Positions 58,391-63,857 of a stretch of DNA of 64,000 bases are shown one piece after another. The notes under the pieces are model-generated. The model saw nothing but the letters and a program-made list of their open reading frames with translations, did no database searches and was not told the origin of the DNA. Every line of letters starts with the position of its first letter. Position 1 is the stretch's first letter. Position numbers and translations under genes: made by a program. This DNA is from Mesoterricola silvestris (GTDB taxonomy: Bacteria; Acidobacteriota; Holophagae; Holophagales; Holophagaceae): the NCBI RefSeq assembly GCF_030295405.1, contig NZ_AP027080.1:4510001-4574000 (forward strand), in the 5' to 3' direction.

Positions 58391-59755
58391 TCATCCGGAC
58401 CTTTCCCGCCCGGACAATAGGCCCGTGGGCAGGAGCGCCGCTGCTGTGATGGCCGCCAGACCAAGTGCGGCCACCCCGTGCGCCATGCCGGGACCCGCCC
58501 GGGCCTGCAGAAGGTGCTGCAGGAGGGCCGCGGCCAGCACGCCCCCCAGGGCTGCTCCCATCTGGTTCAGGATGCGGGACACCACGCTGGCGTGCGCCAC
58601 CTGGACCTTGTCCAGGTCCTGATAGGCCGCGGAGAGGGTCAGGAGGGTGACCAGGCCCAGGCCAGCTCCCCGGGCCAGGAGGGCCGCCAGGGCCAGGGCC
58701 GTCGCCGGCGGCCCCCAGGGGCCAGCGAAGGCCAGGGTGGCCAGGATGGCCACGACGAGGGAGGCCCGGGCCAGGGCCCGGTCCCCCAGGATCCGGGAGA
58801 GCGCGGCGAGCCGGCTCCGGGCCACCAGGGCCCCCACGCCTTGCACCGCCAGCAGCGCCCCCACTCCCGTGGGACCCCAGCCGCGCCCCAGGTTGAGGGG
58901 AAGGAGCAGCAGTCCCCCGTAGAAGGCGGCACTGGACAGGAAGAGGGTGAGCCCGCACCCGGTGAAGGCCCTGAGGCGGAAGAGGCTCAGGTCCACCAGG
59001 GATTCCCTGTCCGCCGGCGCGGGGCGGAGGGCGAAGGCGCCCACCAGGGAAAGTCCCACGGGCAGGGCCCACCCGGGTCCCGACCAGCCATTCCGGGCCA
59101 CCCAGGCCAGGCCGAAGGTCACCGCGGCCAGCCCCGGCGCCAGCAGGAGGAAACCCTGCGCGTCGAAGCGCGCCCGCCCCAAGGGCTCATCCGCCGGCAG
59201 CCCCCTGTGCGCCGTTACCAGGGCCAGGAGCCCCAAGGGAAGGTTGGCCAGGAAGAGCCAGCGCCATCCCGCCGCCTTCAGCAGGAGCCCGCCCAGGAGG
59301 GGACCCAGGATGGGGGCCACCACCGCCGGCACGGCGGCGGTGGCCAAGGCGGCCCGCACCCGGTCGGGGCGCATGCTGCGCACCAGGGCGGTCTGGAGCG
59401 TTGGCGTCAGGATTCCGCATCCCAGCCCCTGGAGACACCGGGCCGCCACAAGACCCCCCAGGGACCCGGCGCACCCGGACAAACAGGATCCCGCCAGGAA
59501 GACCCCCAGGCCCCCCATCCAAAGCCGGCGCACCCCGATCCGGTTGGCAGCCCAGGCGCATACCGGCACAGCCGACGCAGCCGCCAGGGTATACCCGGAG
59601 AGCACCCACTGGGTGTGGGCGAGGGGGGCCCCGAACCGCTGTCCGAACGTGTCCAGGGCCAGGACCACGATGGTGGCGTCCAGAAGAGGAAGGCAGATGC
59701 CCGCCAGGAGGGCCCTCACCACCCTCCGTTCCCCGGTGTCCGTTTCACGACCCAA
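58391..59755 (-). CDS. MFS transporter, DHA2/EmrB-like
   Basis: Multi-helix major facilitator of 454 aa. DATIVVLALDTFGQRFGAPLAHTQWVLSGYTL in helices 1-2 is typical of the DHA2 drug:H+ antiporters, followed by RCLQGLGCGILTPTLQTALV (motif C region) and AVVAPILGPLLGGLL. Its ATG overlaps the end of the upstream reading frame (59745-60032) by 11 bp. Since that frame looks like a cyclodipeptide synthase remnant, an original role in cyclodipeptide export is plausible. Substrate is not established. Confidence 0.85.
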   Translation of the reverse strand: MGRETDTGERRVVRALLAGICLPLLDATIVVLALDTFGQRFGAPLAHTQWVLSGYTLAAASAVPVCAWAANRIGVRRLWMGGLGVFLAGSCLSGCAGSLGGLVAARCLQGLGCGILTPTLQTALVRSMRPDRVRAALATAAVPAVVAPILGPLLGGLLLKAAGWRWLFLANLPLGLLALVTAHRGLPADEPLGRARFDAQGFLLLAPGLAAVTFGLAWVARNGWSGPGWALPVGLSLVGAFALRPAPADRESLVDLSLFRLRAFTGCGLTLFLSSAAFYGGLLLLPLNLGRGWGPTGVGALLAVQGVGALVARSRLAALSRILGDRALARASLVVAILATLAFAGPWGPPATALALAALLARGAGLGLVTLLTLSAAYQDLDKVQVAHASVVSRILNQMGAALGGVLAAALLQHLLQARAGPGMAHGVAALGLAAITAAALLPTGLLSGRERSG

Positions 59756-60032
59756 GGCCCTTCCCCACTACACGTAGGGCCACGGGACCCCGGGTGTAAA
59801 GCCCCGTCTCCCGACAGTCGGCGTCCGCCAGGGCCGACTTCACCAACCGGCTTGTGCGGCCCGCCCAAGTCCCTAGCTTTGCAAGGTAGGGCCGGGAGAA
59901 GCGTCCGTTGAAAGGACTGACCCCCAGCAGGGCGTGTTCGCCCCCCTGCAACAGGCGCCGGCAATTATGAGTTTCGGGCGCCACCCGAAACAGACTCCCA
60001 GGGGAATCAGGGCAAATTTCGTTGGGTTCCAT
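59745..60032 (-). pseudogene. Internally deleted cyclodipeptide synthase remnant
   Basis: A 95-residue frame with GGGAGGCGTG before its ATG at 60032. GGEHALLGVSPFNGRFSR then AKLGTWAGR matches the N-terminal block of tRNA-dependent cyclodipeptide synthases (YvmC: a GISPFNSRFS and WA pattern; AlbC S37 and N40 are here the S and N of GVSPFN). After about residue 65 it jumps to CRETGLYTRGPVALRVV, which resembles the C-terminal end of AlbC. The middle, with the catalytic Tyr and Glu (AlbC Y178, E182), is missing; family length is about 220-250. It ends inside the MFS start. I infer an in-frame internal deletion; expression of a short product is possible. Confidence 0.6.
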
Positions 60033-60488
60033 CACGCCTCCCTTGACCGAAGCGACAGACGCCGTCGGCAAGGGGCTGGATGAGGTCATAGCCGTTCATG
60101 TTTCACCCCGAAACATGAATTTTCTATTTTACGATATTTCAAATTTAAATTATGAGTAAATTTAGTAAATATACATATTTAAGCAGATTATGCAATAATT
60201 AATATATCTGAAGTTGATCGAATTCCCCCTTCCCCAATCGTAACACGGACGATTTCAACTATCATCTTCAATGCTTGTTCGCCTTTGTGACAACATTTTT
60301 TTAAAAGCACTTTTTGTAACAATATGTCCATGATCGTGAGGACCGCCATGACGGGAGCCCTGGGTCATCCTCGCAGGGACTGCGAAGTGGAAACGGGTCG
60401 AGGGGTGGCGACCCGCTCCAACCCCCTGCACAATCTCCTCGCGATCCAGAAGAGGCATGACCTGGGGAACTCCCACTGGTGGAGCGGA
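60033..60488. other. 456-bp gene-free stretch with AT-rich core
   Basis: No supported gene. From about 60110 to 60330 the sequence is strikingly AT-rich against the GC-rich chromosome, with many TA-rich words (TTTAAATTATGAG, AATTAATATATC). The left part holds the 60095-60119 palindrome and the ribosome binding site of the synthase remnant. The right part (60330-60488) has no feature I can name. Confidence 0.7.
60095..60119. promoter_or_regulatory. 10-5-10 perfect inverted repeat
   Basis: TTCATGTTTC, ACCCC, GAAACATGAA. It lies 63 bp upstream of the synthase remnant and next to the AT-rich stretch. It has the size and symmetry of a dimeric regulator's operator; as an RNA hairpin it would lack a U-tract. 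Confidence 0.5.
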
Positions 60489-61277
60489 TCACGCTTTCGA
60501 CAGATAACGCGCAGCCGCATGGGCCTGTCGAATGTCTGACAAAAGCCCTTTCCGCTCACGCTCCAGCACGTCCCAGCGCTCCGCAACCTGGAGGGGTGGG
60601 ATCGTGACCGATTCACGCCGGTCGAAGCCGACCAGCGCCGCGTCAACCAATTCTTCAACGTCCATCACCTCAGGAAGGGTGTTGACGTCAATTCCGGAAC
60701 GCTCCCAGATCTCGGTGCGGGTGGCGGCTGGCAGTACCGCTTGCACATAGACGCCCTTGGGCGACAATTCCACGTTCAAGCCCTGCGACAGGAATAGCAC
60801 AAAGGCCTTGGTGGCACCGTAGATCGACGTGCCGAACTCGGGCGCGAAACCCACCACCGAGCCGATGTTGACGATGGCGCCGCTGCCGGAAGCCACAAAG
60901 CGCGGAGCGATTGCCGCCGCTAGACGCGTCAACGCTAGGGTGTTGAGGGAAACCAGACGGTCGATGCCTTCGGCGGATTGGTCCACAAATCGCCCTGTCT
61001 GGGCCATGCCCGCATTGTTGATCAAGATGCCGATACGCACGTCATCGCGCAGACGGATCTCGAGCGCAGACAGGTCGGCGGGGTTTGTAAGGTCGGCCTG
61101 TAGCACGTCGACGGCGACCTTGCATTCCGCGCGCAGGCGGGTCGCCAAGGTGTCCAGGCGTGACTTGTCGCGCGCCACCAGGACGAGGTCGTGGCCGCGG
61201 CGAGCAAAGCGCTCGGCGTAGGTGGCACCGATGCCGCTTGAGGCACCGGTGATGAAGACGGTCGGAAGCGTGTTCAT
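60489..61277 (-). CDS. Short-chain dehydrogenase/reductase
   Basis: Classical SDR of 262 aa. TGASSGIG (10-17) binds NAD(P), NNAG follows, and the active site has NIGSVVGF (Ser) with YGATK (Tyr-Lys). R38 after the Rossmann second strand (ARDKSRL) favours NADPH. Codon use is less GC-extreme than in the left-hand genes. It is in line with the quinone-oxidoreductase-like gene (45 bp) and divergent HxlR regulator, so the three likely form one regulated aldehyde/ketone or quinone detoxification unit. Confidence 0.9.
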   Translation of the reverse strand: MNTLPTVFITGASSGIGATYAERFARRGHDLVLVARDKSRLDTLATRLRAECKVAVDVLQADLTNPADLSALEIRLRDDVRIGILINNAGMAQTGRFVDQSAEGIDRLVSLNTLALTRLAAAIAPRFVASGSGAIVNIGSVVGFAPEFGTSIYGATKAFVLFLSQGLNVELSPKGVYVQAVLPAATRTEIWERSGIDVNTLPEVMDVEELVDAALVGFDRRESVTIPPLQVAERWDVLERERKGLLSDIRQAHAAARYLSKA

Positions 61278-61322
61278 GGTTTTTTTCCTTTGAGGGGTCG
61301 GTTCAGGTGGGGGGAAATGTTG

Positions 61323-62324
61323 CTATCGGATCGTGACGACGACCTTGCCCTTGGAATGGCCTTGGGCAAGGTAATTGAGAGCCTCCTTTGCCTGCTCGAA
61401 GGAAAACACGTTGTCGATCACCGGCTGGATGCGTTCCGCCGTGAGGAGCTCGCCGATCTCGGCGAGTTGAGTGCCATCGGGACGCACGAAAAGGAATGAG
61501 TAGGCGACACCCTGTTTTTTCGCGAGCCGCATGAACTTGCGGCTCATCAACCCGAATACCCACTTCAGGACGAAATTCAGCCGCCGGGCGCGAGCAAACG
61601 CGGCGTCCAGAGGCCCGATGAGCGAGACGATCTGGCCCCCCGGCTTGAGGATCCCGATGGATTTCTCAAGCGCGTCGCCCCTGACCGTGCCAATCACCGC
61701 GTCATAGTCGCGCAGCGCCTTTTCGAATGCCTGGTTCTTGTAGTCGACCACCTCGTCCGCGCCCAGGCGACGCACCCGTTCGACGTTTCCCGTGCTGGTG
61801 GTCGTTCCCACCTGGGCACCCAGGAACTTGGCCAACTGGATCGCAAAGGTTCCGATGCCTCCGGATCCAGCCGGAATGAACACCTTCTGGCCCTCGCGCA
61901 GGTGGACCCGTTCCTTCAGCGCCTGCCACGAGGTTAGCCCGACCATCGGGATGGAAGCTGCCTGCACGAAGTCGAGATTTGCGGGTTTCAGCGCGGCGGC
62001 GCGCTCCGGCACCGCCGCGAATTCGGCGATCGACCCGGTGCCAAGGTCGAAGATGCTCGCGAAGACCTCATCCCCTGGCTTGAATCGCGTCACACCACTG
62101 CCCACCTCGACCACCACGCCGGCCAGATCGCTGCCCAGCGTGGCCGGAAGTTGGAAATGCAGAACAGGCTTGAACATCCCGGTGGGAATCAGGTTGTCGA
62201 TGGGATTCAGGCCCGCTGCATGGATTTGAACCAGCAGCTCGTCGGACCTCAAGGTTGGAACTGGGACGTCCGTGAAGCCGATCCCGGGTGCTTTTCCGTA
62301 GCGATTGAAGGTGAGTGCTTTCAT
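61323..62324 (-). CDS. NADPH:quinone oxidoreductase-like zinc-independent MDR enzyme
   Basis: Medium-chain reductase of 333 aa. The N-terminal catalytic domain begins MKALTFNRYGKAPG and has AGLNPIDN and LGSDLAGVVVEVGSGVTRFKPGDEVFAS. The Rossmann motif is AGSGGIGTFAIQLAK. Zinc ligands of alcohol dehydrogenases are absent, so a quinone or enone reductase is likely. ATG at 62324 is chosen. HxlR is divergent, 160 bp away, and its operator-like repeats lie between; HxlR proteins often control such genes in response to quinones or aldehydes. Confidence 0.9.
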   Translation of the reverse strand: MKALTFNRYGKAPGIGFTDVPVPTLRSDELLVQIHAAGLNPIDNLIPTGMFKPVLHFQLPATLGSDLAGVVVEVGSGVTRFKPGDEVFASIFDLGTGSIAEFAAVPERAAALKPANLDFVQAASIPMVGLTSWQALKERVHLREGQKVFIPAGSGGIGTFAIQLAKFLGAQVGTTTSTGNVERVRRLGADEVVDYKNQAFEKALRDYDAVIGTVRGDALEKSIGILKPGGQIVSLIGPLDAAFARARRLNFVLKWVFGLMSRKFMRLAKKQGVAYSFLFVRPDGTQLAEIGELLTAERIQPVIDNVFSFEQAKEALNYLAQGHSKGKVVVTIR

Positions 62325-62424
62325 GGCCTGGGTCGTGTCTCCATGGCGATTCTCGTAGTGCTTGCGTTCATGAAATAGCTCTCCGTGTGGGTGGGGGGGG
62401 TGGCTTGCCTTTTCAAAGGGTGTT

Positions 62425-62489
62425 ACTATCAAACTGATATGAACTCTACTCCCCTCCCGAAGGTGTGTCACTACCAAAATGATATGAAC
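62425..62489 (+). promoter_or_regulatory. Two 20-bp direct repeats at the HxlR start
   Basis: ACTATCAAACTGATATGAAC (62425-62444) and ACTACCAAAATGATATGAAC (62470-62489) match at 18 of 20 positions, 45 bp apart. The first contains the palindrome TATCA-AAC-TGATA. Each copy contains an in-frame ATG. They are probable HxlR operators overlapping its own start. Confidence 0.6.
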
Positions 62490-62927
62490 AACAAAAATTG
62501 CCCTCCCGACCCCTGCCCCATCGCCCGGAGCGTGTCCTTTGCCGGCGACGCGTGGTGCCTTCTCATCCTGCGGGACGCCCATGCCGGCCTCACGCGCTTC
62601 GACCAATTCCGGAAGAGCCTGGGCATTGCGCCGACGATGCTGACCCGGCGCCTGGCGACCTTGACCGAGGAGGGATTGCTTGAAAAGAGGCGCTACTCGG
62701 AGCACCCACCGCGAGAGGAGTATCTGTTGACCGCTGCCGGCCGCGATTTTCTGCCGGTGCTGTTCATGATTGGCGAATGGGGGCGCAAATACAGGGGTGG
62801 CGGCAAGTTGATTCGATTTCTGGATGGTGAGACGGGGACGGAAATCAAGGCCGTCGCCGTGGATGAAGTCACCGGAGCGAAGATCGGGACCCGCGCGATC
62901 CGCATGTCCACGCCGGACGCGGACTAG
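62484..62927 (+). CDS. HxlR-family transcriptional regulator
   Basis: Winged-helix regulator of 147 aa. The family opening CPIARSVSFAGDAWCLLILRDAHAGLTRFDQFRKSL, then GIAPTMLTRRLATLTEEGLLEKRRYSEHPPREEYLLT fits HxlR exactly: the Cys in NCPPDPC is often redox-active. Start is ambiguous: ATG 62484 or, 45 bp earlier and in frame, ATG 62439, each lying in one of the tandem repeats. It is divergent from the oxidoreductase gene. The stop codon TAG lies in the CTAG that begins the inverted-repeat element at 62924. Confidence 0.9.
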   Translation: MNNKNCPPDPCPIARSVSFAGDAWCLLILRDAHAGLTRFDQFRKSLGIAPTMLTRRLATLTEEGLLEKRRYSEHPPREEYLLTAAGRDFLPVLFMIGEWGRKYRGGGKLIRFLDGETGTEIKAVAVDEVTGAKIGTRAIRMSTPDAD

Positions 62928-63450
62928 GAACCCGGCTACCCAATCGCACGTGTCCCGGACGTTCGCCCCGGTTCGTTGCTGCGGGCCAAGCCCGCAGCAA
63001 CGGAAGGCTCTCACCCCATGGTTGGGCCTGTGTTTCCACCCATTGGCCCCGACCCACCTCAGGGCCTCTCTTCGAGTGCTGCGAGGAGGGCATTGGGCCG
63101 CGCCAACGCCAATTAGCAAAGCGACCTCGTCTCGAACCGGGCCTTCGGCAGGTCCGGGTTCGAGCTGACTTCAAAGGCGTGTGGGCGGTGCACACCAATC
63201 AGCGTCGGCGCCCATCGGCACCGAGAGGGCCATCGCGAAGCAAACCCACAAACTCAAAGGAGCCGCTCTCCTCGCCTGGGCCTTCCAGGAGAGCCATTCC
63301 CTTCCGAATTCCCTTCTGCTCAACGAAGTGAGTTGGGCGTAGCACTGCCCCAACGTCGCTTCCGCACCCCCCGTCATCGCCGGCTTGGCCGGCGATGACG
63401 AAACAGGGCGAACGTCTGGGACACGTACGATTACGTAGCCGGGCTCCTAG
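62924..63450. mobile_element. MITE-like non-coding element with 50-bp inverted repeats and paired subterminal hairpins
   Basis: Terminal repeats 62924-62973 and 63401-63450 are inverse copies at about 43 of 50 positions and both begin CTAGGA read inward. Directly inside each lies a hairpin with 13-bp arms and a 3-base loop (62974-63002, loop CAA; 63372-63400, loop TTG). Read on the same strand the two stems share layout and loop but differ by paired base changes. The 369-bp centre has a further stem near 63131-63164 and no convincing gene. CTAG at both ends could be a 4-bp target duplication. The ends supply TAG stop codons to both convergent neighbours. No transposase is present. Confidence 0.65.
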
Positions 63451-63857
63451 CTTCTGAGCTGCGAAAGGACGCCGGCCAGGGTGTTGATGCCCCAGTGCTC
63501 GACATACCGCCCATCCTGGATGCGAACGATGTCGATGACATCGATGGTTACGGGGCGCCCCGTCGCCTCGATGCCCATCAGCGTTCCGGCATGGGTGCCG
63601 CTGACCGTCTTCCGGGTGGTGACCAGGTCACCTTCGGCTATCTGGGAATGGATCGTCACCTCCAATCCGGCCAGGGCCGGGCGAAGCACGTTCTGGAACG
63701 TGCTCCACATGCTTTCAGGACCGTTGGGCATGCCCTGAGGTGCGGACCGGTTCACGAAATCCGCGTCCATGAGGGCTTCGAAGGCGCGCCGGTCTCCCTT
63801 GACGATCACCTCCTCGTTGAATCGGCGAACGACGGCCTTGTTGGTTTCGTGGGACAC
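63447..63857 (-). CDS. SnoaL-like (NTF2-fold) protein
   Basis: A 136-residue protein of the SnoaL/ester-cyclase-like NTF2 superfamily. Features: NKAVVRRFNEEVIVKGDRRAFEALMDADFVNRSA at the N-terminus, then GLEVTIHSQIAEGDLVTTRKTVSGTHAG and DIVRIQDGRYVEHWGINTL. Such small alpha+beta barrels include polyketide cyclases and many proteins of unknown role. No polyketide genes are near. It is convergent with HxlR across the 62924-63450 element; its TAG stop lies within the element's terminal CTAG. Probably part of the acquired block. Confidence 0.85.
   Translation of the reverse strand: MSHETNKAVVRRFNEEVIVKGDRRAFEALMDADFVNRSAPQGMPNGPESMWSTFQNVLRPALAGLEVTIHSQIAEGDLVTTRKTVSGTHAGTLMGIEATGRPVTIDVIDIVRIQDGRYVEHWGINTLAGVLSQLRS

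Follow-up and report, generated by a model that had tools for sequence, protein, structure and literature searches.

Among described systems, the yvmC-cypX-yvmA cluster of Bacillus consists of a cyclodipeptide synthase (CDPS) gene with, immediately behind it, a gene for a P450 of the TIGR04538 type, with an MFS gene adjoining (passages of PMC6613138 and PMC7731078). According to the same passages, the neighbouring MFS protein YvmA secretes pulcherriminic acid. In the window, by which we mean the whole 64-kb stretch of Mesoterricola silvestris DNA analysed here, the CDPS and P450 genes are reduced to one fused frame of 95 amino acids. The window MFS protein is DHA2-like and is encoded downstream on the same strand, whereas the gene of Bacillus YvmA is on the other strand and its product is not a close relative.

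Yeast non-producers are described in part of PMC12342472 (citing Krause et al. 2018) as taking up pulcherrimin through the Pul3 transporter, which is the basis of a 'cheater' hypothesis. A role of PUL3 in both uptake and export is reported there to have been shown by experiment. The yeast PUL cluster, as presented in that text, resembles the window in that a transporter persists where the genes that make a cyclodipeptide-derived iron chelator have gone missing. We claim no homology between PUL3 and the window MFS protein. Since the window MFS protein is DHA2-like and not close to YvmA, the parallel with the Bacillus and yeast transporters serves as a lead only.

Among the loci used for comparison, L046 of Streptomyces sp. 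AC1-42W and L045 of Allonocardiopsis opalescens both carry CDPS, P450 and MFS genes in this order on one strand, with the P450 stop beside the MFS start and an MFS protein of the same clade as that of the window. They differ from the window in that all three genes are full length.

A fused frame upstream of an MFS gene

The earlier note on this DNA had described a 95-residue frame with a strong ribosome binding site, an 11-bp overlap with the start of an MFS gene, and an N-terminal CDPS block holding a Ser and an Asn in GVSPFN. All of these features were confirmed, and their coordinates are collected in Table 1. The sequence upstream of the frame reads AAGGGAGG-CGTG-ATG, which makes a good ribosome binding site. 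The TTG start of the MFS frame at 59755 lies inside the fused frame. GC content is 0.43 in 60000-60399, compared with about 0.70-0.76 in the MFS gene.

Table 1. Features of the fused frame and its surroundings (positions in the window)
Feature	Position	Strand	Basis
MFS frame, 454 aa, TTG start	58391..59755	(-)	PF07690, TIGR00711, tree
95-aa frame, CDPS N-terminus and P450 C-terminus joined in frame; ATG 60032 to stop 59745	59745..60032	(-)	CDPS and P450 matches
P450-derived part, residues 72-88, DCRETGLYTRGPVALRV	59769..59819	(-)	P450 profile, blastp-short
Deletion junction, placed within a few bases	59814..59822	(-)	CDPS similarity ends, P450 similarity begins
CDPS-derived part, residues 14-71	59820..59993	(-)	own CDPS profile, PF16715
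Ribosome binding site AAGGGAGG, 4 nt 5' of ATG	60037..60044	(-)	sequence
A+T-rich stretch 5' of the fused frame, where the operon promoter probably lies	60100..60330		GC

The front of the frame is derived from a CDPS. An HMM search with PF16715 aligned residues 15-74 with positions 1-60 of the 220 in the model (58 bits, cut-off 27; E 1.5e-15). The match to TIGR04539 reached 59.8 bits (cut-off 45); both matches take in no more than positions 1-60/61 of 220. Our own profile, built from 79 full-length CDPS relatives, aligned residues 14-71 with 55.8 bits, and structurally characterised CDPS proteins (YvmC, BtCDPS, AlbC and others) matched the same front part. Ser39 and Asn42 of GVSPFN align with the PDB CDPS chains and with the relatives. 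They are likely the equivalents of Ser37 and Asn40 of AlbC, of which Ser37 is the nucleophile in the account given in part of PMC7731078. The same source describes roles for Tyr178, Glu182, Tyr202 and His203 in AlbC numbering; judged by the CDPS profile, the region holding their counterparts is missing from the frame. Profile positions 61-220 have no counterpart in the frame, so that a complete catalytic domain (about 220 positions) is not present. A profile search found no other CDPS match in the whole genome.

When the remnant and the 79 relatives were scored alike against the CDPS profile, with near copies left out, the remnant was lowest with 56.3 bits; the relatives gave at least 63.4, with a median of 85.1. 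This fits lost constraint and also plain divergence. Codon composition was also considered as a sign of decay. GC3 is 0.70 in the fused frame and 0.88 in the MFS gene, but this counts little and was set aside as too weak, because values this low also occur over the first 96 codons of 5 of the window's 36 likely genes.

The tail is the C-terminus of a P450

The earlier note had taken the end of the frame for a CDPS C-terminus. An alignment with MAFFT did place the tail on the basic helix of CDPS proteins, which implied a smaller deletion, and this placement was dropped after the match to P450s was found. The profile of the 79 CDPS proteins is empty after residue 71, exactly where the P450 profile begins to match. 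The tail CRETGLYTRGPVAL is the C-terminus of a CDPS-associated P450 (TIGR04538, CypX-like).

This assignment draws on profile, blastp and tblastn searches. The profile of CDPS-associated P450s begins at frame residue 72 with its own positions 384-400, that is, its C-terminus. It scored 12.6 bits in the frame and 15.8 bits with the tail alone. Among 1000 shuffled tails, 39 gave any row against this profile, and the best of them scored -0.2. A blastp-short search over 4417 ORFs found the best matches of the tail in the C-termini of Bacillus CypX-type P450s, with 13 of 15 residues identical (E 1.4e-8). As a control against a chance match, three P450s were compared by tblastn with all six frames of the whole 64-kb window. 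The best match of each fell at 59825-59766, in the CDPS frame, with E values of 0.045, 0.013 and 7e-4. The window tail CRETGLYTRGPVALRV can be set beside RETGLYTRGPVSLRI and similar C-termini of CDPS-associated P450s, and it contains the C-terminal strand ExG(L/V)YTRGP that can be read off these proteins.

The P450 part is short, at about 17 residues, and the last residues of the frame, VGKGLGS, are unaligned to the profile. Only positions 384-400 are present; the frame has neither the heme-binding region nor any other portion of the P450 fold. A scan with the whole TIGR04538 model at E 0.01 did not list the fused frame, and neither the window nor the genome holds a further convincing stretch of a CDPS-associated P450.

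Intact loci and the extent of the proposed deletion

For comparison, 81 CDPS loci were assembled from the best 80 of 109 relatives in the genome_contigs scan and one viral locus. A CDPS frame of more than 200 amino acids is present in 79 of the 81, and two are without one. P450s of a single family (E <1e-40) are encoded close 3' of the CDPS gene in 23 loci, broken up in L021 and L023. At the 12 CDPS loci nearest to that of the window, the CDPS-associated P450 is present in 11. This family is TIGR04538, 'cytochrome P450, cyclodipeptide synthase-associated': with a cut-off of 500 bits, the model gives 541.9 for the P450 of L046 and 526.5 for that of L045. The CDPS, P450 and MFS frames of L046 measure 238, 413 and 473 amino acids, respectively. 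The MFS gene of L045 has a possible GTG start with a 4-bp overlap with the P450 stop, a spacing in keeping with the 11 bp in the window. A CDPS-P450 fused frame occurs in none of the 81 loci, and no ORF there matches both profiles.

Measured against five intact CDPS-P450 loci, 1693-1753 nt are missing from the window, or about 1.7 kb. The missing stretch starts at about CDPS codon 72 and leaves roughly the last 25-30 codons of the P450 gene in place; what lies on either side of it is joined in frame. The loss amounts to two thirds of the CDPS and more than 90% of the P450. The earlier note had proposed, as one of two possibilities, a decayed synthase, internally deleted and about 140 residues short, with a surviving exporter. 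Decay by deletion with a surviving exporter holds; the deletion, however, extends beyond the CDPS gene, and the shortfall was understated, as most of the next gene is lost too.

A single deletion that began inside the CDPS gene, ended in the last part of the P450 gene and fused the two would be the simplest account. One event of about 1.7 kb is indicated by the intact CDPS-P450-MFS order in other loci and by the presence of the closest MFS proteins in those same loci. Searches of close relatives, covering the 92 class genomes for a CDPS and the six genus genomes for the P450, turned up no intact or intermediate form, so that the deletion is deduced from loci that are only about 40-56% identical. 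With a probability of about 0.88, we consider the locus to be the remnant of a CDPS-P450-MFS operon of the pulcherriminic-acid (YvmC-CypX) kind, left by deletion.

Searches in relatives gave little to compare at shorter distance. Neither of the results that the earlier note had named as refuting its reading, no CDPS match at the front or relatives sharing the short gene, came about. The 95-residue gene is absent from the genus's five further genomes, from 92 others in the class and from the 81 loci, and these genus and class genomes have no CDPS match at all. Three of 396 genomes of the phylum have a CDPS match, the genome of the window included, and the other two matches are unlike that of the window. 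No P450 relative was detected in the six genomes of the genus, the own genome included, in a search run without a positive control. Plasmid and viral collections yielded no close relative. In G004, the only other member of the genus with the left-hand neighbour gene, rearrangement of the flanking genes means that an empty site cannot be delimited. A search of literature titles found none on a CDPS-P450 deletion fusion, which is not proof of absence in print.

The surviving transporter

The MFS frame is open over all 454 codons and matches PF07690 (MFS_1) with 118 bits (cut-off 33.4). It is closest to the DHA2/EmrB type, TIGR00711, at 217.5 bits, just under the cut-off of 230.2. Among the ORFs of the 81 loci, the nearest MFS proteins are those of L046 and L045 with 281 and 233 bits, and the next reaches 52; identity is 40.0% to L046 and 40.8% to L045. 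A tree built from 39 MFS proteins, in which the window row was flagged for a long branch and unusual composition, unites these three in one clade with support of 100/99. The 31 MFS proteins taken in from the own and related genomes all fall outside it. The next branch is a DHA2 MFS protein of G003. It was considered as a cluster remnant and rejected, as that genome has no CDPS match or P450 relative and the neighbours of the gene show no sign of a cluster.

Judged from the open frame and its start region, the transporter is probably still made. Ribosomes would still reach the MFS start because the fusion is in frame, and translation may depend in part on coupling to the fused frame. The stop/start overlap may have been inherited from the P450-MFS junction. 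Without its biosynthetic partners, the transporter could act as a general efflux pump; alternatively, it may protect against, or use, the cyclodipeptide product of neighbours.

On the right-hand side, window positions 60489-63857 encode an SDR, a zinc alcohol dehydrogenase, an HxlR regulator and a SnoaL-like protein. Their GC content is about 10 points below that of the MFS side, a hint that these genes were acquired separately as a block.

Decay at other CDPS loci

Decayed CDPS loci occur elsewhere. The CDPS frame of L029:4140-6261 (Bacillus sp. HF117_J1_D) ends after 93 residues, and tblastn did not find the remainder of the CDPS or a P450 there. Its YvmA-like MFS frame is intact at 395 amino acids (46.7% to that of L031), and the locus is an independent case of a transporter outliving its synthase. 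CDPS and P450 genes are split by inserted DNA in L021:5956-11656 (Photorhabdus thracensis), and the P450 of L023:6767-8115 (Photorhabdus) is split into two frames.

A second CDPS relic in the phylum lies in the fragmented genome G183 (L128:3062-3393 on G183:C55, the same as L014:1468-1799). CDPS profile positions 3-50 and 169-219 abut there in different frames, as left by an out-of-frame internal deletion. A BlaI-like regulator gene is close 3' of it; the Streptomyces locus L018, which is intact, shares this feature (CDPS, BlaI, M56 peptidase). L029, L021 and G183 contain no CDPS-P450 fusion. A weak CDPS match, L015:1501-1971 (G265; 29 bits against a cut-off of 27, positions 20-176), lies inside a long open frame that could be a divergent CDPS-like protein.

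Relic, leader or protein

The 95-residue product is without the remainder of the CDPS catalytic domain and without the part of the P450 that binds heme, so it would have no enzymatic function and can be neither a synthase nor a P450. In our view the frame is a dead relic, which perhaps still couples translation to the orphan transporter.

Selection might instead keep the frame as a short leader that sets the level of the exporter by translational coupling. The strong ribosome binding site, the in-frame fusion that lets ribosomes reach the overlap, and the 11-bp overlap itself would suit such a role. However, the CDPS part diverges more than any other CDPS scored, with none of the 79 relatives lower, which fits no selection on its sequence, and chance gives in-frame joins one time in three. 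The MFS start also has a purine-rich stretch of its own, GGGGAAGG, so that coupling may be unnecessary. We regard a selected leader as unlikely. An assembly artefact, in which an intact operon of the organism was collapsed, is very improbable given a single-contig genome of 4,994,678 bases and a CDPS part that already looks degraded by its lowest profile score. About as improbable is a small protein with a function of its own, such as tRNA binding or regulation: the frame is open, in frame and well initiated, but it holds less than a third of the CDPS domain, is poorly conserved, and has the same form in no relative among the 92 class genomes and 81 CDPS loci. A deletion inside the CDPS gene alone, with both ends of the frame from the CDPS, would agree with the front part and with the occurrence of such deletions in G183, yet it is next to untenable, since the three P450s and the P450 profile match past residue 71, where the CDPS profile is empty.

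Implications

The remnant operon allows a broader and doubtful scenario. A bacterium that had acquired an operon of the pulcherriminic-acid type would have shed both enzymes by one in-frame deletion and kept the translation-coupled transporter, becoming a 'cheater' or a resistant non-producer among surrounding cyclodipeptide producers, a bacterial parallel to yeasts with PUL3 only. The fusion would then be a retained end state. We consider this improbable as a whole.

Automatic annotation is likely to be wrong at this locus, since the frame passes the cut-offs of PF16715 and TIGR04539 and cannot be a cyclodipeptide synthase. Recognising in the MFS gene the only one left whole of a former CDPS-P450 operon gives a concrete guess at the substrate of an otherwise anonymous transporter. 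The locus adds one more case of a transporter that outlived its biosynthetic genes.
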